In this document: piece after piece, positions 27,564 to 64,000 of the stretch
How positions within the stretch are numbered: the stretch's first letter is position 1
How the letters are laid out: each line of letters begins with the position of its first letter
Assembly: GCF_009939005.1 (NCBI RefSeq)
Contig: NZ_JAACJS010000011.1
Span: 586,096-650,095, forward strand
Direction of reading: 5' to 3'
Length of the DNA stretch: 64,000 bases
DNA from: Sediminibacterium roseum
GTDB lineage: Bacteria; Bacteroidota; Bacteroidia; Chitinophagales; Chitinophagaceae
Made by a program: the position numbers and the translations under genes
Notes under the pieces: model-generated
What the model was told of the DNA's origin: nothing
Seen by the model: only the letters and a program-made list of their open reading frames with translations
Databases searched by the model: none

Positions 27564-27710
27564 GCGTTGCTAAAAATAACACCTGGATGGATACCGGAGC
27601 TTTTTTTCTGCCGCCCGAAAGATCTGTTGTTTTACAGGATAAACCGTTCCAGGTTCCTTAATTCTTCATTATATTTAAAACGGCTGAAAATCTTTACTTC
27701 GCCCCCGCTT

Positions 27711-28586
27711 ATGAAAACATCTTTTTCACGTTTTACACGGCATTGTGCCGCTCTCTCGCTACTGCTTGTGTTATGCAGTGGCGCCAGTAATCGCGGAACC
27801 GTTACGGAGGATTGGATCGATCTCTTCAACGGCAAAGACATCAACAACTGGATCGTTAAGATCCAGCACCACGAAACGGGTGATAATTACGCGAATACTT
27901 TCCGTGCGGAAGACAGGATCATCAAGGTGAGGTACGATGGATATGACAAGTTCAACGAGCAGTTTGGCCATTTGTATTTCAAACAGCCTTACTCTTATTA
28001 CCATTTGAAATTTGAATACCGTTTTACCGGAGAATGGAGAAAAGATGCACCGGGCTATACCGAGCTCAACAGCGGCGTGATGTATCATTCACAGGATCCG
28101 CGTACAATGCCGAAGGAGCAGGACTGGCCCATCTCCATCGAAATGCAGCTGCTGGCAGGTCTGCCCGATGGCAAACCAAGACCCACCGGCAATATGTGTT
28201 CTCCCGGAACCAATATTGTTTACAAAGGGAAACTCGATACCAGGCATTGCATCAACTCCAGCTCCAAAACCTACCCCGCCAATAACGACTGGATCAGGGC
28301 CGAGCTTATTGTGCTTGGCGATTCGCTGATCACGCACATCATCAATGGAGATACGGTGCTTCAATATTCAAAGCCGCAGATCGGTGGAGATGTGGTAAAC
28401 CGCTACGATCCCAAACAAAAGATAGACGGCACCATACTCGATCACGGCTTTATCGCTTTGCAGAGCGAAGGGCAACCCGTGGATTTCAGGAATGTGAAGT
28501 TGCTGAACCTGGAAGGTTGCATGGACAAAGCGTCGAAAAGCTACAGGAGTTATTTTGTGAAGGGGAATGCGGGGCTTTGTAAATAA
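27711..28586 (+). CDS. DUF1080 / 3-keto-disaccharide hydrolase-like protein
   Basis: After a signal peptide (MKTSFSRFTRHCAALSLLLVLCSGA), the 291-residue protein has the concanavalin-like DUF1080 domain. It shows WIDLFNGKDINNWIVKI near the start, the central NSGVMYHSQDP, and the C-terminal GFIALQSEGQPVDFRNVKLLNL. Members are abundant in Bacteroidota and Planctomycetes; some hydrolyse 3-keto-glycosides. The long frame begins at 27567, but the signal peptide starts at 27711. It stands alone between VanZ and uxuA, about 1 kb from the sugar genes. Confidence 0.9.
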   Translation: MKTSFSRFTRHCAALSLLLVLCSGASNRGTVTEDWIDLFNGKDINNWIVKIQHHETGDNYANTFRAEDRIIKVRYDGYDKFNEQFGHLYFKQPYSYYHLKFEYRFTGEWRKDAPGYTELNSGVMYHSQDPRTMPKEQDWPISIEMQLLAGLPDGKPRPTGNMCSPGTNIVYKGKLDTRHCINSSSKTYPANNDWIRAELIVLGDSLITHIINGDTVLQYSKPQIGGDVVNRYDPKQKIDGTILDHGFIALQSEGQPVDFRNVKLLNLEGCMDKASKSYRSYFVKGNAGLCK

Positions 28587-50981: not shown

Positions 50982-53549
50982 ATGCGGAAGAAATGGGTAC
51001 TTTTTTTATGCGCGGTCCTCTCCCTCGGACATCCGTTCGCGCAGCATTTCATTTCCGGGAAAAGCGGGAATGGAAATTTTCCCATTGCAACCACTGCTAC
51101 CGCTGCTACCATTGTTGTTGACGACAACGACGCATGGCTCGTGCAGAAAGCCGCGGATCTTTTAAGAACAGATATACAGGCCGTAACCGGCAAAATACCA
51201 ACAAGGGTAAACAGCATGGCGTTGGCCGGCAGACACCTGATCATCATCGGAACCATCGGCCGTTCAAAGGCGATCGATGCATTGGCGAAGGATAAGAAAA
51301 TAAACACCGGCCAACTCAAAGGAAAATGGGAAGCTTACCAAATACAGGTTGTGGCCAATCCTTTCCGTGGTGTTGATGATGCGCTGGTGATCGCAGGCAG
51401 CGACAAACGCGGCGCTGCCTTTGGTGTTTTTGAATTGGCAAGGCAACTCGGTGTATCGCCCTGGTATTGGTGGGCAGATGTGCCGGCAAAACAAAAGAAA
51501 GAAGTATACGCGATAAGGGGAACAAACATTGTTGACAGCCCGATGGTAAAATACCGAGGCATATTCATCAACGACGAAGCGCCTGCATTCACCAATTGGG
51601 CGAAGGAAAAATTCGGCGGCGTGAACCATCTTGTATATGAAAAGGTGTTTGAACTGATCCTTCGCAACAAAGCAAACTATTTGTGGCCCGCCATGTGGGG
51701 CAAATCGTTCGCAGACGACGACACATTGAGCCCCGTACTTGCCGATCAATATGGTATCGTGATCAGTAACTCGCACCACGAGCCCATGCTGCGCGCGCAG
51801 CAGGAATGGAAAAAATATGGCAAGGGGCCATGGAACTACCAGACAAACGATACTGTGCTGAGGGCCTTCTGGAAAAAGGGCATCGAGAACATGGGAACCC
51901 ATGAAAGCGTGATCAGCATTGGGATGCGCGGTGATGGCGATATGCCCATGACACAGGGCAGCAACATTGCATTGCTCGAAAGAATTGTGGCCGATCAAAG
52001 AAAGATCATCGAAGAGGTAACAAAGAAACCGGCGTACGCCACACCACAATCGTGGGCACTGTACAAAGAAGTGCAGGATTACTACGATAAAGGAATGCGT
52101 GTTCCCGACGATGTTACGTTGTTGTTGTGCGACGACAACTGGGGCAACATCCGCAAGCTTCCCAGATTAACGGATGCTCCGCGCAAGGGTGGTTATGGCA
52201 TCTATTATCATTTCGATTATGTAGGCGGGCCGAGAAATTACAAATGGCTCAACACAAATCCATTGCCGCGCGTGTGGGAGCAGATGCACCTGGCTTATGA
52301 ATATGGCGTGAAAAACATATGGATCGTAAATGTGGGCGATATCAAACCAATGGAACTGCCCATTTCATTTTTTCTTGATTATGCATGGAACCCCGGCCGC
52401 ATAAACGTAACCGAGATACAGGAATATACAGAGCAATGGGCGGCCGAACAGTTTGGAAACGAACATGCCGTTGAGATCGCCGGTATACTTTCGAAATATG
52501 CAAAGTACAATGGCAGAAGAAAACCAGAGCTGCTCGACGCAAACACGTATTCATTGTTCAATTACAACGAGCTCGAACGTGTAACCAGCGAATACAACCA
52601 ATTGTTTGCAAAGGCAGATGCCATCGCCAAGCTACTCCCCACGCAATACAAAGACGCCTATTTCCAGCTCGTTTTGCATCCTGTTAAGGCCTGCGCAAAC
52701 CTGCAGAACCTGTATTACCATGTTGCGCAGAACAAACACCTGGCCGCCAATTACGATATCGCAGCGAACAAACATGCAGATGAGGTGAAACGCCTATTTA
52801 TCGAAGACTCGCTGATCTCCAAAACATACAATACACTCGCCAACGGGAAATGGAACCATATGATGGATCAATCGCATATCGGCTACACAGCATGGTTCGA
52901 TCCTCCTTTCAACCGGATGCCGGCGGTAAGATACATACCGGCAGATTCAGCCATCGCTAAAACAAGCGTAAGCAGGGATGAGCACGGCGATGCCACATCT
53001 GCTCCAACAGGCACTGACTTTATAGAAACCGGAAAAATGCTTTCGATAGACGCGGAACATTTCAGCAAAGCTGTATCCACAAATACAATTCAATGGCAGG
53101 TATTACCGGATCTCGGCCGAACGGGCTCGTCCGTTACAACCACGCCCGTTACGGCTCCTGAACAGGTTCCTGGCAACCATGGCGCACACCTTGAATACAC
53201 GGTTCATTTCTCAGATACCGGCATTGTAAAACTGCATCTGTACTTCTCTCCTTCCCTGAATTTTCACAACAACGAAGGACTGAAATACGCGGTGTCTGTG
53301 GATGAAGAAATGCCGCAGATCGTTTCCATCAACAAAGACGATAACAATACCCGTACCTGGGAAGAATGGATGCGCAACAACATCATCACCAAAACAACAT
53401 CGCACCACATCAAAACACCGGGCACACATACGATCAAATACTGGATGGTAAGCCCGGCAGTTGTGCTCCAAAAAATTGTGGGCGATATGGGGGGCCTTAA
53501 ACCGAGTTACCTGGGCCCGCCCGAAACAAGACTAACCAACACCAAATAA
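50982..53549 (+). CDS. GH115 xylan alpha-1,2-glucuronidase
   Basis: The 855-residue secreted enzyme (signal peptide ending near PFAQ) belongs to GH115, which removes (4-O-methyl)-glucuronic acid from xylan. The N-terminal domain has DNDAWLVQKAADLL and a Rossmann-like stretch. The catalytic TIM-barrel region contains YRGIFINDEAP, NYLWPAMWGKSFADDD, NSHHEPMLRAQQEW, IGMRGDGD and WIVNVGDIKPMELPISFFLDYAWNP. A beta-sandwich domain closes the protein. It opens the run of hydrolase genes. The released glucuronate probably feeds uxuA, which lies in this window. Confidence 0.93.
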   Translation: MRKKWVLFLCAVLSLGHPFAQHFISGKSGNGNFPIATTATAATIVVDDNDAWLVQKAADLLRTDIQAVTGKIPTRVNSMALAGRHLIIIGTIGRSKAIDALAKDKKINTGQLKGKWEAYQIQVVANPFRGVDDALVIAGSDKRGAAFGVFELARQLGVSPWYWWADVPAKQKKEVYAIRGTNIVDSPMVKYRGIFINDEAPAFTNWAKEKFGGVNHLVYEKVFELILRNKANYLWPAMWGKSFADDDTLSPVLADQYGIVISNSHHEPMLRAQQEWKKYGKGPWNYQTNDTVLRAFWKKGIENMGTHESVISIGMRGDGDMPMTQGSNIALLERIVADQRKIIEEVTKKPAYATPQSWALYKEVQDYYDKGMRVPDDVTLLLCDDNWGNIRKLPRLTDAPRKGGYGIYYHFDYVGGPRNYKWLNTNPLPRVWEQMHLAYEYGVKNIWIVNVGDIKPMELPISFFLDYAWNPGRINVTEIQEYTEQWAAEQFGNEHAVEIAGILSKYAKYNGRRKPELLDANTYSLFNYNELERVTSEYNQLFAKADAIAKLLPTQYKDAYFQLVLHPVKACANLQNLYYHVAQNKHLAANYDIAANKHADEVKRLFIEDSLISKTYNTLANGKWNHMMDQSHIGYTAWFDPPFNRMPAVRYIPADSAIAKTSVSRDEHGDATSAPTGTDFIETGKMLSIDAEHFSKAVSTNTIQWQVLPDLGRTGSSVTTTPVTAPEQVPGNHGAHLEYTVHFSDTGIVKLHLYFSPSLNFHNNEGLKYAVSVDEEMPQIVSINKDDNNTRTWEEWMRNNIITKTTSHHIKTPGTHTIKYWMVSPAVVLQKIVGDMGGLKPSYLGPPETRLTNTK

Positions 53550-53573: not shown

Positions 53574-54626
53574 ATGACCTATAAGATCTTGATTGCAACT
53601 GCACTGTCAGCTACAGCATTGTTCTCTTCGGCCCAGGAGAAAGGCACTTTGAAAAAGAGGCCCATCTCGCAGCCGCTTGTGAAACACATTTTTACCGCGG
53701 ATCCATCTGCACATGTATTCAACGGAAAGATCTACATCTATCCTTCACACGATTTTGAAGCCGGCATCAAGGAAGATGACCTTGGCAGCCATTTTGGAAT
53801 GCGCGACTACCACATCCTTTCCATGGACTCGATCGGCGGAAAAGTGACCGACCACGGTGTTGCCCTCGATATCAAGGATGTTCCGTGGGCCGGCAGGCAA
53901 ATGTGGGCGCCCGATGCGGCGTATAAAAACGGCACCTATTATTTGTATTTTCCTGTAAAAGACAAATCGGATGTGTTCCGTATCGGTGTTGCCACCAGTA
54001 AAAACCCGGCAGGCCCTTTCAAGGCAGAGAAAGAACCCATCAAGGGCAGCTATAGCATTGACCCCGCGGTTTTCAAAGACAAAGACGGAAGTTATTACAT
54101 GTATTTCGGCGGAATATGGGGCGGGCAACTGCAGCGCTGGGACAATAACAACAAGTACGACGCGAACGCAAAATTGCGGACCGCAAAAGAAGAAGCGATC
54201 CTTCCAAGGGTGGCCAAACTCAGCGCAGACATGAAAAGCTTCGCGGAAGCGCCCCGGACAATAAAAATCGTTGATGCAAATGGAAAAACATTCCTGGAAG
54301 CAAACAACGACAAACGTTTTTTTGAAGCGTCGTGGATGCACATGTACAAGGGGAAATATTATTTCTCTTACTCTACGGGCGATTCGCATTTCATCAATTA
54401 CGCGATAGGTACAAGTCCGTACGGGCCTTTTGTATACAAAGGCGTAGTGTTGAACCCGGTAGAAGGATGGACCAACCATCATTCAATTGTAGAGATCAAA
54501 GGCAAATGGTATCTTTTTTACCACGATGTACAGCTCTCCGGTAAAACGCATCTGCGCAACGTAAAAGTGGCCGAATTGAAATACAACGCCGACGGAACAA
54601 TACAAACCATAAACGCATATTATTAA
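53574..54626 (+). CDS. GH43 family glycosidase (xylosidase/arabinofuranosidase)
   Basis: A signal peptide (MTYKILIATALSATALFSSAQ) is followed by a five-bladed propeller of family 43. The three expected acidic residues can be placed at Asp43 (TADPSAHVFNGKIYIYPSHD), Asp163 (SIDPAVFKDKDGSYYMYFGG) and Glu251 (FFEASWMHMYKG). The 350-residue length means no extra binding module. Family 43 includes beta-xylosidases and alpha-L-arabinofuranosidases, which cannot be told apart here; both fit the locus. It lies 24 bases after GH115 and 34 before GH51, so one transcript is likely. Confidence 0.93.
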   Translation: MTYKILIATALSATALFSSAQEKGTLKKRPISQPLVKHIFTADPSAHVFNGKIYIYPSHDFEAGIKEDDLGSHFGMRDYHILSMDSIGGKVTDHGVALDIKDVPWAGRQMWAPDAAYKNGTYYLYFPVKDKSDVFRIGVATSKNPAGPFKAEKEPIKGSYSIDPAVFKDKDGSYYMYFGGIWGGQLQRWDNNNKYDANAKLRTAKEEAILPRVAKLSADMKSFAEAPRTIKIVDANGKTFLEANNDKRFFEASWMHMYKGKYYFSYSTGDSHFINYAIGTSPYGPFVYKGVVLNPVEGWTNHHSIVEIKGKWYLFYHDVQLSGKTHLRNVKVAELKYNADGTIQTINAYY

Positions 54627-54660: not shown

Positions 54661-56199
54661 ATGAAGAAATGGATCCTCATCGCGGGAGTTTGTTTAGGCA
54701 ATACCGCATTCGCACAAAACGAGATCACGCTACAGGCGGACAAAGGAAAAGACATCATCAACAAGAATATCTACGGGCATTTTGCTGAACACCTCGGGCA
54801 TTGTATATACGGCGGAATGTATGTGGGCGAAGGCAACACGAAGATCCCCAACAAAGACGGTGTGCGCCTTGATGTGATCAATGCATTGAAGAAACTGAAA
54901 GTGCCCGTTCTGCGTTGGCCGGGCGGCTGTTTTGCGGATACTTACCACTGGAAGGACGGCATAGGCCCCAAAGACAAACGGCCATCGATGCTCAACGTGT
55001 GGTGGGGCAATGTGAAAGAAGACAACAGCTTTGGCACCAATGAATTTCTCAACATGTGCGAGGTACTTGGTGCAGAACCCTATCTCAGCGGCAATGTAGG
55101 AAGCGGCACACCGCAGGAGCTGTCTGATTGGGTTAAATACACCATCCATCCGAATGGCAGCAGCCCGATGCCCGAATTGCGCGCACAGAATGGAAGACAA
55201 AACCCATGGCACGTGAAATACTGGGGCATCGGCAATGAGGCATGGGGTTGCGGAGGCAACATGAGGCCCGAGTATTATGCAAATATTTACCGTCAATACG
55301 TAACGTTCATGACGAATGGCGATCCGAAAGAAAAAATATTCCGCATCGCATCGGGCGCAAGCGACAACGATTACAACTGGACGGAAGTATTGATGCGCGA
55401 CATACCCCACAACATGCTTGACGCGGTTGGCGTGCACCACTACTCCGTAATCAACTGGAACAAGAAAAGCTCCGCAACCGCTTTCAATGAAGAGGAATAT
55501 TATACAACCATGCAACGCGCACTCGAAATGGAAACATTGGTAACCAGGCATGCGGCGGTGATGGACAAATATGATCCCAACAAAAAGGTTTCCATTGCCG
55601 TAGACGAATGGGGCGGATGGTACGATGTTGAACCAGGTACAAACGGCGCGTTCCTCTTCCAGCAAAATACAATGCGGGATGCGATGATCGCGGGAACATC
55701 GCTTAACATCTTCAACAATCATTGCGACCGCGTAAAGATGGCCAACCTTGCACAGATCGTAAACGTGCTGCAGGCCGTGATCCTCACCAACGAAGAAAAA
55801 ATGCTGCTCACCCCAACCTATCATGTAATGGAAATGTACAACGTGCACCAGGATGCAACAATGCTGCCGTTGACAGTAAAGAGCAACGATTACAAAATGG
55901 GAAAAGAAAAACTGAGCGCGATCTCTGCATCTGCATCGAAAGACAAGAACGGTTTAACACACATTTCCCTGGTGAACATTGATGCCAGCAAGGAGCAGGA
56001 CATAACCATCAACGTAAGCGGCGCAAATTATTCGGCGGTTTCGGGGAGGATACTGGCATCCGACAAATTACAGAACTACAACAGTTTTGAGAACCCTGAA
56101 AAAATAAAGCCAATGCCATTCAACGGTGCAACGCTCAGCGGAACTACATTGAAATTAAAACTGCCGCCGTTCTCTGTTGTGGTACTGGAAGTAAAATAA
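54661..56199 (+). CDS. GH51 alpha-L-arabinofuranosidase
   Basis: This 512-residue exported enzyme (signal peptide ending FAQ) releases arabinose from arabinoxylan or arabinan. The N-terminal strand NIYGHFAEHLGHCIYGG and VLRWPGGCFADTYHWKDG are characteristic of family 51. The acid/base Glu193 is in the GIGNEAWGCGG motif and the nucleophile Glu316 in VDEWGG. A C-terminal beta domain completes the fold. Released arabinose should enter through the ara symporter. Confidence 0.95.
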   Translation: MKKWILIAGVCLGNTAFAQNEITLQADKGKDIINKNIYGHFAEHLGHCIYGGMYVGEGNTKIPNKDGVRLDVINALKKLKVPVLRWPGGCFADTYHWKDGIGPKDKRPSMLNVWWGNVKEDNSFGTNEFLNMCEVLGAEPYLSGNVGSGTPQELSDWVKYTIHPNGSSPMPELRAQNGRQNPWHVKYWGIGNEAWGCGGNMRPEYYANIYRQYVTFMTNGDPKEKIFRIASGASDNDYNWTEVLMRDIPHNMLDAVGVHHYSVINWNKKSSATAFNEEEYYTTMQRALEMETLVTRHAAVMDKYDPNKKVSIAVDEWGGWYDVEPGTNGAFLFQQNTMRDAMIAGTSLNIFNNHCDRVKMANLAQIVNVLQAVILTNEEKMLLTPTYHVMEMYNVHQDATMLPLTVKSNDYKMGKEKLSAISASASKDKNGLTHISLVNIDASKEQDITINVSGANYSAVSGRILASDKLQNYNSFENPEKIKPMPFNGATLSGTTLKLKLPPFSVVVLEVK

Positions 56200-56254
56200 A
56201 AATGTTGTGTACATCCGGTCAACCAAAAACGATTCATTCATAAATACCAACAAA

Positions 56255-57775
56255 ATGCAAAATCGCTCACTACCCTACACATTCAGGAAATGGTTTTGCA
56301 TTTTGTTGTTGTTCGTTCCGTTTGCATCAAACGCGCAGTTGCAGCCCACAGGTATTTTTGATCATCACGAAGACATCGGCGATCCGAAGATCAAAGGCAG
56401 CATTGTTTACAACAAAGAGGACCAATCCTATACAATGAGCGGCGCAGGAAAAAACATGTGGGCAACCGCGGACCAGTTTCATTTTGCATGGAAAAAAATA
56501 AAGGGCGACTTCATTATCAAGGCCACGGTACGTTTTATCGGCAAAGGAACGGTTGACCACAGGAAGATCGGCATCATCGCTCGCGACCAGCTTACTACCG
56601 GTTCGCGTTATGCAGACGCATGCGTTCATGGAGATGTGCTCACTTCGCTTCAGTACCGCGAAAAAGAAAGTGATACAACCGGGCAGGTTATTGTTTCATC
56701 CTATCATCCAACAGAAATAGAACTGGAACGCTCGGGCGATACCTTTACATTTTCTGCGGCAACGTTTGGAGAAACATACAAATCGGTATCCAGGAAGATC
56801 AAATTGAACGATGAAGTATATGCCGGCCTGTTCATCTGTTCACACGATGAGAACGTGGTTGAAAAAGCAGTGTTCACCAATGTCCGCATCATCATTCCCG
56901 CGGCAAAAGACTTCAGGCCCTATCGTGATTACATTGGCAGTCATATAGAAGTGATGGATGTATCAACGGGTCTCAGCAAAATCCTCCACAGTGCACCCAA
57001 TTCTTTACAGGCGCCCAACTGGACACCAGACAACAAATACCTGGTGTACAATGCCGACGGCTCTATGTTCCGGTACGAATTGGCGAGCGGCAACACCAGC
57101 AAACTGAACACGGGTTTTGCAACGCAGAACAACAACGACCATGTTTTGTCGTTTGACGGAAAAACACTTGGCATCAGTCATTATGTTGGCGCCGGCCGTA
57201 TTTCAACCATTTATACATTGCCTGTTACCGGCTCAGACAACCCGGTCAAGATCACGTCAGAGGATTCGGGACACTCCTATTTCCATGGATTTTCGCCAGA
57301 CGGAAAGAAGATGCTCTTTACAGGCTACCGAAACAAGGAATGGAACATCTGGAGCATCGATGTCAATACAAAAAAAGAAACACAACTCACCGAGGCGCCG
57401 CCGCTGAACGATGGCGCTGAATACACACCCGACGGCAAATACATCTACTTCAATTCTGCAAGAACGGGAACGATGAAGATCTGGAGAATGAAAGCAGATG
57501 GCAGTGAAGAACAACAGGTAACGTTTGATGAATACAACGACTGGTTCCCGCATATCTCACCCGATGGAAAATGGATCGTGTACGAATCTTTTCCCAAGGA
57601 AATTGATCCGTTGACGCACCCGTTCTACAAACGCATTTACCTGCGTTTGATGCCGGTAGCCGGCGGCGTTCCTAAAACCATTGGTTATGTGTATGGCGGG
57701 CAGGGCAGCATCAACGTACCGAGCTGGTCGCCCGATAGCCGGAAGATCGCGTTTGTGAGTAATTCAAAATTATAG
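56255..57775 (+). CDS. PD40 beta-propeller protein with N-terminal lectin-like domain
   Basis: The 506-residue exported protein has two parts. After a signal peptide, a jelly-roll domain (about 25-220, WATADQFHFAWKKIKGDFIIKATVRFIG) looks like the DUF1349/concanavalin group. It is followed by a TolB-type propeller of PD40/WD40-like blades (SPDGKKMLFTGYRNKEWNIWSID, TPDGKYIYFNSARTGTMKIWRMKADG, SPDGKWIVYESFP, SPDSRKIAFVSN). TolB itself is not likely, since no pal or tolA is nearby. In this place it may bind or cleave glycan. The frame begins at a GTG at 56207, but the signal peptide begins at 56255. Confidence 0.8.
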   Translation: MQNRSLPYTFRKWFCILLLFVPFASNAQLQPTGIFDHHEDIGDPKIKGSIVYNKEDQSYTMSGAGKNMWATADQFHFAWKKIKGDFIIKATVRFIGKGTVDHRKIGIIARDQLTTGSRYADACVHGDVLTSLQYREKESDTTGQVIVSSYHPTEIELERSGDTFTFSAATFGETYKSVSRKIKLNDEVYAGLFICSHDENVVEKAVFTNVRIIIPAAKDFRPYRDYIGSHIEVMDVSTGLSKILHSAPNSLQAPNWTPDNKYLVYNADGSMFRYELASGNTSKLNTGFATQNNNDHVLSFDGKTLGISHYVGAGRISTIYTLPVTGSDNPVKITSEDSGHSYFHGFSPDGKKMLFTGYRNKEWNIWSIDVNTKKETQLTEAPPLNDGAEYTPDGKYIYFNSARTGTMKIWRMKADGSEEQQVTFDEYNDWFPHISPDGKWIVYESFPKEIDPLTHPFYKRIYLRLMPVAGGVPKTIGYVYGGQGSINVPSWSPDSRKIAFVSNSKL

Positions 57776-57808: not shown

Positions 57809-60424
57809 ATGAAAAACATTCTTGTTTCTTTTTCGTTGCTGTTCTGCACGGCACTTAACGCACAGCAGAACAAACCGGAGTTTCCCTTTCAGAATACGGC
57901 GCTCAGCTTTGAGCAGCGTGTAAACGATCTTGTGAGCCGTCTGACACTCGAAGAAAAAGTGGCGCAAATGCTGAATGCAACGCCGGCGATCAAACGATTC
58001 AACATTCCCGCATACGATTGGTGGAACGAAGTACTGCACGGTGTTGCGCGTACACAATACAAGGTAACCGTGTATCCGCAGGCGATCGGTATGGCCGCAA
58101 CATTCGATACGAATTCACTGAAAACGATGGCCGATTACTCGGCGATCGAAGGTCGTGCGATCTTTAACGAGAACACAAAACAAAACAAAGCAGGATCAAG
58201 GTATACAGGGCTCACCTACTGGACGCCCAACATTAATATATTTCGCGACCCGCGTTGGGGCCGTGGACAGGAAACCTACGGTGAGGACCCCTTCCTGACA
58301 GCGATGCTGGGAAAATCTTTTGTAAATGGTTTACAGGGCAACGACCCGAAATACCTGAAAGCCGCAGCATGCGCAAAACACTATGCGGTGCACAGCGGCC
58401 CCGAGCCATCAAGGCATTCGTTCAATGCTGTTACAAGCGATTACGACCTTTGGAACACGTACCTGCCAGCATTCAAAGAGCTCGTTGTAAATGCAAAAGT
58501 GGCGGGCGTAATGTGTGCATACAATGCCTTTAAAACACAACCCTGCTGCGGAAGCGATGAGCTGATGACGCACATCCTCCGCGATCAATGGCAATTCACA
58601 GGCTATGTTACTTCTGATTGCGGGGCGATCGATGACTTCTACCGCTTTCACAAAACGCACGCCGATGCCGTGAGCGCGGCCACCGATGCGGTTTTACACG
58701 GAACCGATATAGACTGCGGCAACCAATCGTACAAAGCATTGGTGGATGCGGTGAAGCAGGGAAAGATCAGTGAAAAACAACTTGATGTTTCGCTGAGAAG
58801 ACTGTTCATGATCCGCTTCCGTCTTGGTATGTTCGATCCCCCATCCATGGTTAAATATGCGAACACACCAACATCGGAACTGGAGAGCCCGGCGCATGCG
58901 GCGCACGCACTTAAAATGGCGAGGCAATCGATCGTTCTTTTGAAAAACGAGAACCATACTTTACCACTCCGTAAAAATCTAAAAAAGATCGTGGTGCTTG
59001 GGCCGAATGCAGACAATGGCATAGCGATACTGGGCAACTACAACGGAACGCCTTCCAGGCTGGTAACGGTTTTACAAGGCATCAAAGACAAAGCAGGGAG
59101 CAATACAGAAGTGGTATACGAAAAAGCGATCCAGTTCACCAACGATACCTTGCTGGTATATTCGGATGTGAGCAGCCAGTATTCGATCGACGGAAAAAAA
59201 GGCGTTAAGGCCGAATACTTCAACAACAAAGAACTGGCCGGTGACCCCTTGTTCACGCGTACCGAAAGCGATATCGACCATTTCTGGCAGGAAGGGGAAG
59301 CGGTTACCGACCAGATGAAAGCATTGAATTTTACCGCGCGTTATACCACGGACTATACAGCGCCAACTACCGGCGATCTTACATTTGAAATGGATGCAGA
59401 CGATGGCTACCGCCTGCTGATCGATGGCAACGAAGTGATCAATGCATGGCAACGCAACCGCTTCGGCGCGCGCTCGCACAAGCTGCAGATCGAAAAAGGA
59501 AAAAAATACCGCATCGTTGTAGAATACCTGCAAACGGAAGGAAAAGCGAACGTGAGACTGCGCGCGGGCAACTTTATCAAATCAGATTTTGCCGCGTTGA
59601 CCAACCGGATCAAAGATGCGGATGTGATCGTTTATGCAGGAGGTATCTCTCCTCAACTCGAAGGAGAAGAGATGCGTGTGAACTACCCGGGCTTCAATGG
59701 CGGCGACCGGACAACGATCGCATTACCCGCTGTGCAGACCGAGTTGATGAAAGCATTAAAAACAACCGGTAAACCCATCGTGTTTGTAATGCTCACCGGT
59801 AGCGCGATAGCCATCCCTTGGGAGAACGAGAACATCCCGGCGATCGTGAATGCTTGGTATGGCGGACAATCTGCCGGCACTGCGATTGCGGATGTTTTGT
59901 TTGGCGATTACAATCCGGCGGGCCGTTTGCCGGTAACTTTTTACAAAAGCGATAACGACCTTCCTTCGTTCGAGGAATACTCGATGAACAACAGGACCTA
60001 CCGTTATTTCAAAGGCGAACCCCTCTATCCTTTTGGTTATGGACTTAGCTATACAAATTTCACCTACAGCGATCTCAGAACAGCTGCAACACTTTCACCA
60101 GGCAAAAACGTAACGGTGAGTGCAAGGGTAACCAATTCAGGCGCCAAAGATGGTGAAGAAGTGGTACAACTGTATGTGGCCCCGAAAAACGAGCCGCAAC
60201 TGGTAAGAGCGTTAAAAGGTTTCAAACGCATTGCACTTAAGGCAGGCGAAAGCAAAGTGGTATCATTCACCCTGACACCGCAGGACCTTTCAACGATGAG
60301 TACAAGCGGGAAAACGATACCGATGTCTGGCAAAATAACGATCAGCATCGGCGGCGGACAGCCTGATCTAAAGATCAAAACAAGTTCAGGTGTTGTGCGG
60401 AAAGACCTGCTGGTATCAAAATAA
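57809..60424 (+). CDS. GH3 beta-xylosidase/glucosidase with PA14 insertion
   Basis: The 871-residue secreted protein is a family 3 glycosidase. The N-terminal barrel carries the nucleophile Asp270 in VTSDCGAIDDFY, a form typical of beta-xylosidases. In the second domain, a PA14 module (about 462-590, KAEYFNNKELAGDPLF and EMDADDGYRLLIDG) is inserted; PA14 often shapes specificity for substituted oligosaccharides. A fibronectin-III-like domain ends the protein (VTVSARVTNSGAKDGEEVVQLYV). It likely releases xylose from oligomers. Confidence 0.94.
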   Translation: MKNILVSFSLLFCTALNAQQNKPEFPFQNTALSFEQRVNDLVSRLTLEEKVAQMLNATPAIKRFNIPAYDWWNEVLHGVARTQYKVTVYPQAIGMAATFDTNSLKTMADYSAIEGRAIFNENTKQNKAGSRYTGLTYWTPNINIFRDPRWGRGQETYGEDPFLTAMLGKSFVNGLQGNDPKYLKAAACAKHYAVHSGPEPSRHSFNAVTSDYDLWNTYLPAFKELVVNAKVAGVMCAYNAFKTQPCCGSDELMTHILRDQWQFTGYVTSDCGAIDDFYRFHKTHADAVSAATDAVLHGTDIDCGNQSYKALVDAVKQGKISEKQLDVSLRRLFMIRFRLGMFDPPSMVKYANTPTSELESPAHAAHALKMARQSIVLLKNENHTLPLRKNLKKIVVLGPNADNGIAILGNYNGTPSRLVTVLQGIKDKAGSNTEVVYEKAIQFTNDTLLVYSDVSSQYSIDGKKGVKAEYFNNKELAGDPLFTRTESDIDHFWQEGEAVTDQMKALNFTARYTTDYTAPTTGDLTFEMDADDGYRLLIDGNEVINAWQRNRFGARSHKLQIEKGKKYRIVVEYLQTEGKANVRLRAGNFIKSDFAALTNRIKDADVIVYAGGISPQLEGEEMRVNYPGFNGGDRTTIALPAVQTELMKALKTTGKPIVFVMLTGSAIAIPWENENIPAIVNAWYGGQSAGTAIADVLFGDYNPAGRLPVTFYKSDNDLPSFEEYSMNNRTYRYFKGEPLYPFGYGLSYTNFTYSDLRTAATLSPGKNVTVSARVTNSGAKDGEEVVQLYVAPKNEPQLVRALKGFKRIALKAGESKVVSFTLTPQDLSTMSTSGKTIPMSGKITISIGGGQPDLKIKTSSGVVRKDLLVSK

Positions 60425-61564: not shown

Positions 61565-62569
61565 ATGAAAAAATACTTTATTTTTTTGCTGATCCCCGTG
61601 ATGGCGGGTTGCCAGGAAAAATCCGCCAAAAAAAAATATCCTGTTACCGGGTCTGTTGAAAGGATCGATCCGGCATTGGACCAGATCATCATGCCCGGTG
61701 CCAAGCCAGAGATCATCGCGGAGGGTTTCGACTGGACAGAAGGGCCGTTGTGGATCGAGAAATACAAAATGTTGCTCTTTTCCGATGTTCCAAAAAATAC
61801 GATCTATAAATGGACAGAGGCCAAAGGCAAAGAAGTTTACCTCACTCCTTCCGGTTACACCGATACGGCCAAACGTGGTGGCGAAACAGGATCGAATGGA
61901 TTGACGCTCGATAACAATGGGCACCTCATCCTCACGCAGTGCGGCAACAGGCAGATCGCAAGAATGGATGCAGCGATCGACCGGCCGGCTCCAAAATTTA
62001 TTTCGATCGCCAACAACTACAAAGGAAAAAAATTCAACAGTCCCAATGATGTGATCGTTAACAGCAAAGGCGAATATTTTTTTACCGATCCTCCTTATGG
62101 ACTGGAAAAATACATGAGCGACCCAAAAAAAGAACTACCCTACCAGGGTGTTTTTAAAGTAAAAACAAATGGTGAGGTTGTATTGCTTACGGATACCATC
62201 ACCCGCCCCAATGGCATCCTGCTGTTGCCCGGTGAAAAAACATTACTCATCGCGAATTCCGATGGGCAAAAAGCAAACTGGTATGCCTATGATCTTGTTG
62301 GCGACCGCCTTACCAATCCAAGAATCTACTACACTGCAATGGGCAGCGATAGAAAATTAAAAGGCGGCCCGGATGGAATGAAAGTAGATTCAAAAGGAAA
62401 CTTGTTTGCAAGCGGGCCGGGAGGCATCTGGGTTTTCGACCCTTCGGGAAAACTGGTTGGCAAGATCAGCGTTCCCGAGGCCGCATCCAATTGCGCTTTG
62501 TCTGGCGATGAGAAAACATTGTACATCACCAACGACATGTATGTTCTTCGTTTAACCATGAGAAAATAA
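61565..62569 (+). CDS. SMP-30/gluconolactonase-family lipoprotein
   Basis: The 334-residue lipoprotein (lipobox VMAGC, Cys16) is a six-bladed propeller of the SMP-30/gluconolactonase family. Metal-site motifs TEGPLW, GSNGLTLD, NSPNDVIV and RPNGILL are visible. These enzymes open sugar lactones such as glucono- or xylono-lactone. The lipid anchor puts it in the periplasm or on the surface, which is where a lactone from an oxidised sugar would appear. It precedes the FAH gene by 15 bases and is likely co-transcribed with it. Confidence 0.9.
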   Translation: MKKYFIFLLIPVMAGCQEKSAKKKYPVTGSVERIDPALDQIIMPGAKPEIIAEGFDWTEGPLWIEKYKMLLFSDVPKNTIYKWTEAKGKEVYLTPSGYTDTAKRGGETGSNGLTLDNNGHLILTQCGNRQIARMDAAIDRPAPKFISIANNYKGKKFNSPNDVIVNSKGEYFFTDPPYGLEKYMSDPKKELPYQGVFKVKTNGEVVLLTDTITRPNGILLLPGEKTLLIANSDGQKANWYAYDLVGDRLTNPRIYYTAMGSDRKLKGGPDGMKVDSKGNLFASGPGGIWVFDPSGKLVGKISVPEAASNCALSGDEKTLYITNDMYVLRLTMRK

Positions 62570-62584
62570 AACTGTAACCATACC

Positions 62585-63415
62585 ATGAAACTGTATAAAA
62601 CCACGCAGGGCATCGTTATCGACAAAGACGGGACCTGTTACCTGCTTAAAGAAAACAATTGGGATGCATTCATCAACGACGATTCGTTGCACCAGAAAAT
62701 GCAAAGGCTCACCACTACATTAACGCCAACGGGCAAACCCGTGCCCGTTGATGAGATCCTCGCACCGATCGGCAACCAGGAATTATGGGCATGTGGCGTG
62801 ACTTACCTGCGAAGCAAAGTAGGGAGACAGGAAGAATCAAAAGCATCGGGCGGCAGCGATTTTTATGCAAAGGTGTATGAAGCGGATCGCCCGGAAGTAT
62901 TTTTCAAATCAACACCGCACCGCGTAGTGGGCAATGGCGGCAAGGTGAACATCCGCAAGGATTCTACATGGGACGTGCCGGAACCGGAACTGACATTGGT
63001 GGCAAGTTCATCCGGAAAAATTGTGGGTTATACCATCGGTAACGACATGAGCAGCCGGAGCATCGAAGGAGAAAATCCATTGTACCTGCCGCAGGCAAAA
63101 ACATACGATGCATGTGCAGCGGTTGGCCCTTGTATTTATGTAACGGAAACGCCCATCGCAGGCGATACGAAGATCCATCTCAGCATTGCAAGAAACAATG
63201 CGGTTGTTTTTGAAGGAACAGTTGCGCTCGACCAGATGAAACGAAAACCCGAAGAACTGGTATCTTTTGTGTTCCGTGAATGTTCTTTCCCCAACGGTTG
63301 TTTGATCATGACAGGAACAGGCATTGTTCCGGGCAGCGATTTTACACTGGTATCGGGTGATGAGATCAGTATCACGATCGATCATATCGGGACATTGGTG
63401 AATACCGTCCGCTAG
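62585..63415 (+). CDS. Fumarylacetoacetate hydrolase-family protein
   Basis: The 276-residue cytoplasmic protein has the FAH fold. The metal-binding set is likely Glu133, Glu135 (VPEPELTLV) and Asp154 (GNDMSSRSIEGENPLY). The C-terminal TGTGIVPGSDFTLVSGDEISI is a family signature. FAH-family members include 2-keto-3-deoxy-pentonate and 2-keto-3-deoxy-gluconate dehydratases. Next to a lactonase and a gluconate-type transporter, a dehydratase of 2-keto-3-deoxy sugar acids is a better guess than aromatic catabolism. Confidence 0.88.
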   Translation: MKLYKTTQGIVIDKDGTCYLLKENNWDAFINDDSLHQKMQRLTTTLTPTGKPVPVDEILAPIGNQELWACGVTYLRSKVGRQEESKASGGSDFYAKVYEADRPEVFFKSTPHRVVGNGGKVNIRKDSTWDVPEPELTLVASSSGKIVGYTIGNDMSSRSIEGENPLYLPQAKTYDACAAVGPCIYVTETPIAGDTKIHLSIARNNAVVFEGTVALDQMKRKPEELVSFVFRECSFPNGCLIMTGTGIVPGSDFTLVSGDEISITIDHIGTLVNTVR

Positions 63416-63450: not shown

Positions 63451-64000
63451 ATGACATTTCTCATCATACTCTTCGCAATTGCGTTACAGGTTTTTTTGAC
63501 AGTGAAAAAGTTGAGCCCTTTCCTGTCGCTGTTGATCGTTGCGATCGTATGCGGCCTGTTATTGGGGATGCAACCTGAGGCCCTGCTCGCATCCATCGAA
63601 AAGGGCGTGGGCAGCACACTCGGCGGCCTGGCACTGATACTTTGTCTCGGCGCCATCCTCGGAAAAATATTGGAAGTAAGCGGGGCGGCAGAGCAGATCT
63701 CATCAACACTGATCAATTCGTTCGGTGAAAAAAACATCCAGTGGGCGGTATTGCTAACGGGTTTTTTGATCGGCATCCCTTTGTACTACAATGCAGGTTT
63801 TGTGATACTGGTGCCGCTCGTTTTCTCTATTGCAAAACGAACCGGTTTACCGCTGTTATACATTGCTATCCCAATGGCAGCCTCGCTTTCAACAACGCAT
63901 TGTTTCCTGCCGCCGCATCCCGGCCCTGTTGTACTTGTAAATGCATTTCATGCAGACATGGGAAAAACACTGGTGTATGGCATCATCATTGCCATTCCAT
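63451..64000 (+). CDS. GntP-family gluconate/sugar-acid permease (partial)
   Basis: The frame runs off the right edge after 183 codons. It begins MTFLIILFAIALQVFLTVKK and shows several long hydrophobic segments, GLLLGMQPEALLASIEKGVGSTLGG, and the signature HCFLPPHPGPVVLVNAF of the GntP gluconate:proton symporters. It most likely takes up an aldonate. The start ATG is 35 bases after the FAH stop. Confidence 0.88.
   Translation, partial: MTFLIILFAIALQVFLTVKKLSPFLSLLIVAIVCGLLLGMQPEALLASIEKGVGSTLGGLALILCLGAILGKILEVSGAAEQISSTLINSFGEKNIQWAVLLTGFLIGIPLYYNAGFVILVPLVFSIAKRTGLPLLYIAIPMAASLSTTHCFLPPHPGPVVLVNAFHADMGKTLVYGIIIAIP

Follow-up and report, generated by a model that had tools for sequence, protein, structure and literature searches.

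The 3-keto-glycoside route begins with oxidation at C3 by dehydrogenases of the Gfo type or by LacABC and continues with elimination or hydrolysis, hydration and reduction, as laid out in the relevant portions of PMC10628242 and PMC9007349. As for propellers, the portions of PMC12204202 that concern them state that automatic annotation assigns the name TolB to many outer-membrane proteins that are only TolB-like and mention propeller-only proteins; neither 2OJH nor Gfo is named in those portions. Atu1656 of Agrobacterium tumefaciens (structure 2ojh) was solved and released in 2007 under the entry title “putative TolB,” and we found no function for it, nor did a literature search of limited scope return any paper on the propeller family that it typifies. 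Members of this family carry the automatic names TolB or “biopolymer transporter Tol,” which hide them from researchers working on sugar breakdown. To our knowledge, no propeller is known in the 3-keto-glycoside pathway. We base this on the main texts of PMC10628242, PMC10066097, and PMC12724307, which name none: the words “TolB” and “propeller” are absent from them.

The protein analyzed here, encoded in a 64,000-nucleotide stretch of the Sediminibacterium roseum genome (the window), is a two-domain member of this widespread, uncharacterized propeller family, which is often found beside sugar-oxidizing enzymes. Its open reading frame (56255–57775, + strand), singled out in an earlier note on this DNA, is a real gene for a protein of 506 amino acids, composed of a signal peptide, a DUF1349-like jelly-roll, and an Atu1656-type PD40 propeller with six blades; translation from an alternative in-frame GTG at 56207 would lengthen it by 16 residues. 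The hydrophobic export signal at the N-terminus bears out the note's description of the protein as exported. The surrounding operon consists of co-directional genes spaced by 15 to 55 bp, and domain searches identified, in order, a GH115 alpha-glucuronidase (50982–53549, +), a GH43 enzyme (53574–54626, +), a GH51 alpha-L-arabinofuranosidase directly upstream of the propeller gene (54661–56199, +), a Xyl3A-like GH3 beta-xylosidase directly downstream of it (57809–60424, +; 1069.8 bits, with the NCBIfam cut-off of 1250 not reached), and a putative esterase (PF00756; 60443–61516, +). These are followed by an SMP-30/gluconolactonase gene and an FAA-hydrolase gene (61565–63415, +; domain search and our own HMM) and by the start, at 63451, of a GntP-type permease gene matched by our own HMM. 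The GH51 and GH3 flanks and the tightness of the operon are thus as the earlier note described them. The genome contains one full copy of the propeller gene and four further matches, which are partial and 29–34% identical. An in-frame TAG stop is present in one homologue (L111). Our own HMM detected no Gfo gene in the window. About 28 kb upstream of the propeller gene and outside the xylan operon, the window encodes a DUF1080 3-keto-disaccharide hydrolase (27567–28586, +; PF06439, E 1.8e-35).

The AlphaFold model of the protein (pLDDT 93.4, pTM 0.90; 76 aligned sequences) consists of a beta-sandwich at residues ~34–222 followed by a six-bladed propeller at ~225–506. The 76 sequences (alignment A1) are the window protein and its homologues from 75 of 80 loci, five loci (L013, L014, L024, L033, and the partial L069) being omitted; alignment A4 holds 63 of the 76. 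The N-terminal domain (residues 31–224; 56345–56926, +), in which the earlier note had seen a jelly-roll, is predicted as a concanavalin-like fold of this kind when modeled by itself (pLDDT 96.0), and its best solved matches are jelly-rolls: 3mep (Z 19.9, rmsd 2.2, 163 aligned), 3o12 (Z 18.9, rmsd 2.6, 170 aligned), the C-terminal domain of a GH43 enzyme, 5jow (Z 16.5, rmsd 3.2, 174 aligned), and the CBM66 module 4b1m (Z 16.2, rmsd 2.6, 150 aligned). DUF1349 (PF07081) is the sole recurrent Pfam match of the domain, scoring 20.7 bits in the window protein, below the cut-off of 32.4, and matching weakly (E ≤ 0.1) in 51 of 63 members. Since a profile search against the sequences of solved structures gave no matches, the kinship of the jelly-roll rests on its fold; the likeness to CBM66 is one of predicted fold, and we regard the domain as a candidate carbohydrate-binding module.

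The propeller (residues 227–506; 56933–57772, +) was delimited from fold match and alignments, and its PD40 repeats score 90.6 bits in Pfam. The closest solved chain is 2ojh (Z 42.8, rmsd 1.8, 276 aligned, 42% identity), with a sequence match over residues 228–501 at E 6.5e-69; sequence and fold match over the full propeller, together with common inner-strand motifs, place the protein among the Atu1656-type propellers. The earlier note had described a likeness to TolB in blade sequence only and overlooked this much closer relative. The structure prediction that it proposed, together with a comparison of folds, returned six blades, an Atu1656-type propeller, and TolB in second place. A TolB-like periplasmic structural role, as implied by automatic names such as “biopolymer transporter Tol,” could draw on the PD40 blades and on TolB of the Tol–Pal system being the next-best solved fold, also a six-bladed PD40 propeller (Z 27.8, rmsd 2.6, 253 aligned). 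We consider this role very improbable, and the data already contradict it: the window protein scores 98.1 bits against the TolB model TIGR02800, whose cut-off is 343.15, its N-domain is a jelly-roll rather than TolB_N, and TolB_N (PF04052) has no match in its own genome. Nor is there any Tol–Pal gene among the ten window proteins scanned between 48784 and 63415, in agreement with the missing Tol–Pal context noticed earlier.

Propellers of PL22 have seven blades and a Mn-binding His/Gln site. Membership of PL22, which the earlier note had entertained, is rejected: PF14583 reaches 27.2 bits against a cut-off of 30, the six-bladed model covers 2ojh almost end to end, and the conserved motifs of the window protein's propeller family differ from those of PL22. 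Shared with PL22 are the PD40 blades and, in PL22-like proteins, a His two residues before an SPDG turn (position 433 in the window protein); profile comparison of the propeller family with PL22 gave a probability of 95.9 for an alignment that tracks the repeats only. Structures of PL22 and SMP-30 were absent among the best 50 matches of the fold searches, although they could still rank lower. Another region of the contig carries a gene for a PL22-like propeller (L137, 1492–2736, − strand), the motifs of which differ from those of the window protein.

Residues N293, N294, D295, H296, H344, D386, E389, N428, W430, H433, Q483, and N487 are invariant in the 76 full-length sequences, and all of them except E389 and N428 also remain unchanged across a set of 19 propellers representing Bacteroidota, Alphaproteobacteria, and Actinomycetota. 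In the latter alignment, 13 of the 17 invariant polar residues (DEHKRNQW) fall into inner-strand windows comprising 58 of 282 residues (p = 4e-7, a value that depends on the choice of these windows, drawn from predicted strands after the motifs were known). The invariant residues of the propeller gather at the starts of the six innermost strands, which in propeller topology form one face around the axis. This looks like an active or binding face, and the strand order suggests a pocket in which His, Asp, and Asn may adopt metal-site geometry.

The operon invites the reading, already put forward in the earlier note, that the protein is dedicated to arabinoxylan, with the jelly-roll binding the chain and the propeller cleaving or presenting xylo- or arabino-oligosaccharides. 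Indeed, a GH51 gene adjoins the propeller gene (within 400 bp) in the window and in six further loci (L006, L007, L008, L042, L047, and L038), changing state 4 times on the propeller tree and thus representing about four lineages, and the jelly-roll fold is common to CBM66 and the C-terminal domains of GH43 beta-xylosidases. Four of these loci, namely, the window, L006, L007, and L008, group together as a clade with a support of 0.93. However, no GH51 gene is adjacent in 74 of 81 loci, a window-like GH43 gene is near in 7 of 80 and a GH115 gene in just one of 80 (L006), and the propeller gene was found in none of 20 GH115-centered stretches from other genomes, hand-picked from the list of GH115 matches; furthermore, propeller relatives without the jelly-roll occur in sugar-ABC operons. 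Co-occurrence with GH115, which the earlier note had suggested counting, is weak: among 147 genomes of the family Chitinophagaceae, 38 match the propeller protein at E ≤ 1e-60, 30 of them at full length by listing count, and GH115 is present in 16 of these 30 versus 34 of the 117 others (p = 0.017). The association holds at the level of genomes and not of loci, as both genes lie within 20 kb of each other only in the window's genome, although fragmented assemblies could hide some cases. The gene neighborhoods do not support an exclusive xylan role of the family, which we reject; the xylan link is local and not family-wide, and a dedicated arabinoxylan protein appears unlikely. The broader suggestion of the earlier note, a glycan-active or oligosaccharide-binding protein, fares better and is a plausible candidate function in view of the invariant residues, the fold shared with CBM66 and GH43 C-terminal domains, and the nearby sugar enzymes. 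Probably, the window protein serves sugar catabolism in general and is not dedicated to xylan. In some homologous loci, the neighbors of the propeller gene include an SMP-30 lactonase gene or a GntP permease gene, which may point to a route via sugar acids. A window-like SMP-30 gene is carried by L008 and L027, and GntP genes are found in L016, L027, L030, and L069; the next gene downstream in L027 encodes an IlvD/EDD dehydratase.

We counted jointly, in Bacteroidota, four families of the 3-keto-glycoside pathway, namely, Gfo/Idh/MocA oxidoreductases, DUF1080, sugar-isomerase-like TIM barrels, and ThuA. Such genes make up 53 of 949 flanking ORFs around full-length homologues (25 of 80 loci), 7 of 157 around further full-length homologues (4 of 11 loci), and 16 of 124 around stand-alone propellers (4 of 9 loci), versus 1 of 297 ORFs (1 of 20 sites) at control sites placed by hand at round offsets on contigs of 12 out of 19 sampled genomes, none of them a genome of the 80 loci. 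Measured against GH115-centered stretches, where pathway genes account for 5 of 240 ORFs, the excess is weaker, with p = 0.013 for the 80 full-length loci and p = 6e-5 for the nine stand-alone ones. Given the 113 copies of PF01408 in five genomes (~32 Mb), the 386 kb of control sequence should contain about 1.35 Gfo genes; our own HMM saw one.

Around the 80 full-length homologues, Gfo genes are concentrated next to the propeller gene, where they make up 14 of 224 ORFs at distances of up to 1.5 kb, 13 of 212 at 1.5–3.5 kb, 6 of 204 at 3.5–6 kb, and 1 of 309 beyond 6 kb (27 of 436 within 3.5 kb versus 1 of 309 beyond 6 kb, p = 6e-6); at least 9 kb upstream was available in 51 of 80 loci, so that the flanks are unequal. 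The sugar-isomerase-like genes do not thin out with distance in this way (1, 1, 1, and 4 in the four distance bins). The seeds of our own HMMs came partly from the same neighborhoods; independent of them is a Pfam scan of 110 nearest and 110 distant neighbors (from 73 and 51 loci, respectively, excluding proteins longer than 1500 amino acids and ORFs cut by locus ends), in which Gfo was found in 8 of the nearest and 2 of the distant proteins. The 110 nearest also included five GH51 and three DUF1080 proteins, and PF01261 (sugar-isomerase-like) was found in 4 of the 110 distant neighbors and was not among the best 25 families listed for the nearest. With a Pfam-verified Bacteroidota seed added, the DUF1080 model detected six genes in five of the 80 loci. 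Relatives of the window protein are thus shown by these statistics to lie near Gfo genes, and near Gfo, DUF1080, isomerase-like, and ThuA genes taken jointly, more often than controls; by context, the pathway genes are co-located with the family more often than expected by chance, the window's own operon excepted. When 114 propellers are placed on a FastTree phylogeny, the trait of having a pathway gene within 5 kb requires 22 changes, fewer than in any of 300 shuffles, and it is therefore partly inherited, such that the loci are not independent.

The sugar neighbors could alternatively reflect the clustering of many exported proteins in Bacteroidota, with the propeller protein having a housekeeping role of its own. 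Consistent with this, 55 of 80 full-length loci have no pathway gene, a Gfo gene recognized by Pfam's model lies within 10 kb of a propeller gene in one of five genomes (G065), and other neighbors include cysS, histone-deacetylase-like, ABC, and thiolase genes. The enrichment over control sites and, less so, over GH115 loci, as well as the pairing with Gfo genes in two phyla, speak against it, and we regard a housekeeping role as quite unlikely. In L056, L064, L065, and L067, the propeller gene, a gene for a histone-deacetylase-domain protein, a gene of unknown family, and a GH95 or GH97 gene follow one another as a repeated block, the families of which were checked on one representative each. 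In the Cyclobacteriaceae loci L070, L071, L073, and L077, the propeller gene converges on the cysteinyl-tRNA synthetase gene, and L071 and L077 have Gfo genes 3–5 kb away on the opposite side.

Immediate pairing with Gfo is seen among stand-alone and plasmid-borne relatives. Of the nine stand-alone Bacteroidota loci, four (L147, L149, L150, and L151) have a Gfo gene 18–24 bp downstream of the propeller gene, and each of the four also has a sugar-isomerase-like gene (Pfam check on L147 and L150). The encoded Gfo proteins carry the leader motif RRRFLQ in three cases and RKKFLQ in one, which we take to resemble a Tat signal. The stretch around the stand-alone propeller of L147 (1–18501) is dense in such genes, with three Gfo (one edge-cut), two sugar-isomerase-like, three DUF1080, and one ThuA, four of them checked with Pfam. 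Relatives were also found on 25 plasmid records, including one of the full-length form (Spirosoma, L120). Our plasmid sample comprised 18 stretches from 17 records; 16 of the stretches are annotated, and 10 of these 16 (L115, L117, L118, L121, L122, L124, L125, L126, L129, and L131) have an annotated pathway gene, that is, Gfo/Idh/MocA, DUF1080, sugar phosphate isomerase/epimerase, or ThuA; L116, L119, L120, L123, L127, and L128 have none by annotation. The ten stretches are not independent, because L115 and L122 represent one arrangement in two strains and L124–L126 one operon type. A scripted count of 9/17 is too low, as the ORF caller drops genes in GC-rich plasmids; for instance, L126 was scored “none” by the script, although DUF1080 and Gfo are annotated in its record. 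The rhizobial L124, L125, and L126 share one gene order, in which a sugar ABC transporter is followed by DUF1080, Gfo, the propeller, and an HbpS-like or heme-binding protein, with the propeller gene overlapping the Gfo gene by 4 bp (L124 checked with Pfam).

Propellers are common interaction platforms, and these immediate, at times overlapping, gene pairs in rhizobia and stand-alone Bacteroidota loci could mean that the propeller is itself non-catalytic and assists Gfo/Idh/MocA dehydrogenases as a subunit, a chaperone, or a platform that holds the substrate, its invariant face being the surface on which a protein or ligand docks. We consider this improbable, since our own HMM detects a Gfo gene in 18 of the 80 full-length loci, leaving 62 without one, as is the window, and the richness of the invariant set in His, Asp, and Asn would fit a metal site.

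Location of the proteins bears on the same question. An N-terminal hydrophobic stretch is missing in 12 of 14 plasmid-borne relatives (the test covered 14 of the 18 plasmid stretches, with a threshold set by eye), a further point against a TolB-like periplasmic role; the exceptions are Parabacteroides L116, which has one, and the doubtful L128. Conversely, seven of nine stand-alone Bacteroidota proteins have a hydrophobic N-terminus by eye, the other two having an unclear start, and the Gfo, isomerase-like, and DUF1080 proteins encoded near them carry a leader in most cases, with some exceptions. The propellers are therefore exported mostly where their neighbors are, which fits a role in the pathway and not in Tol–Pal.

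The best reading of these data is a putative enzyme or binder for oxidized sugars, recruited here to arabinoglucuronoxylan use. More fully, we propose that the Atu1656-type family serves sugar catabolism, without a role in Tol–Pal, through a putative metal-assisted site for oxidized sugars, and that the present member was recruited to an arabinoglucuronoxylan operon, a proposal that we hold tentatively and somewhat short of even confidence. It is limited by the presence of a pathway gene in just 25 of the 80 full-length loci. H296, H344, and H433, together with D295, D386, Q483, and N487, would line one face of the propeller, and this face may form a metal-assisted site for a small oxidized sugar, such as a 3-keto-glycoside, a keto-sugar, or a sugar lactone, which the propeller would cleave, hydrate, or isomerize while the jelly-roll may hold the end of a glycan. 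In the window, the protein would act outside the cytoplasm on sugars freed by the GH115, GH43, GH51, and GH3 enzymes; no Gfo gene being present there, it may instead take a sugar acid or a lactone as substrate, given that SMP-30, FAA-hydrolase, and GntP genes follow. The propeller might be a further cleaving, hydrating, or isomerizing enzyme, a lactonase, or a substrate-holding partner, among which we favor an enzyme with a metal. A more specific version, in which the propeller is an unrecognized metal-dependent eliminase, hydratase, or hydrolase of the 3-keto route, cytoplasmic in rhizobia and exported in Bacteroidota, with the present member joined to a glycan-holding jelly-roll and linked to xylan use, strikes us as a rather doubtful prospect. 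If the family does act on oxidized sugars, it would contribute a testable step to a glycan-breakdown route of recent discovery, and its misleading Tol annotation could be dropped.

Compared with known systems, the protein shares its whole propeller with Atu1656, including the NNDH, HG, NDG, DWFPH, and GGQG..N motifs, whereas the solved chain (2ojh) has no jelly-roll domain. The 3-keto-glycoside pathway, described in portions of PMC10628242 and PMC9007349, comprises a Gfo/Idh/MocA dehydrogenase, a DUF1080 hydrolase, and a sugar-isomerase-like eliminase and hydratase; the window's own operon is devoid of these genes, which accompany part of the propeller's relatives.
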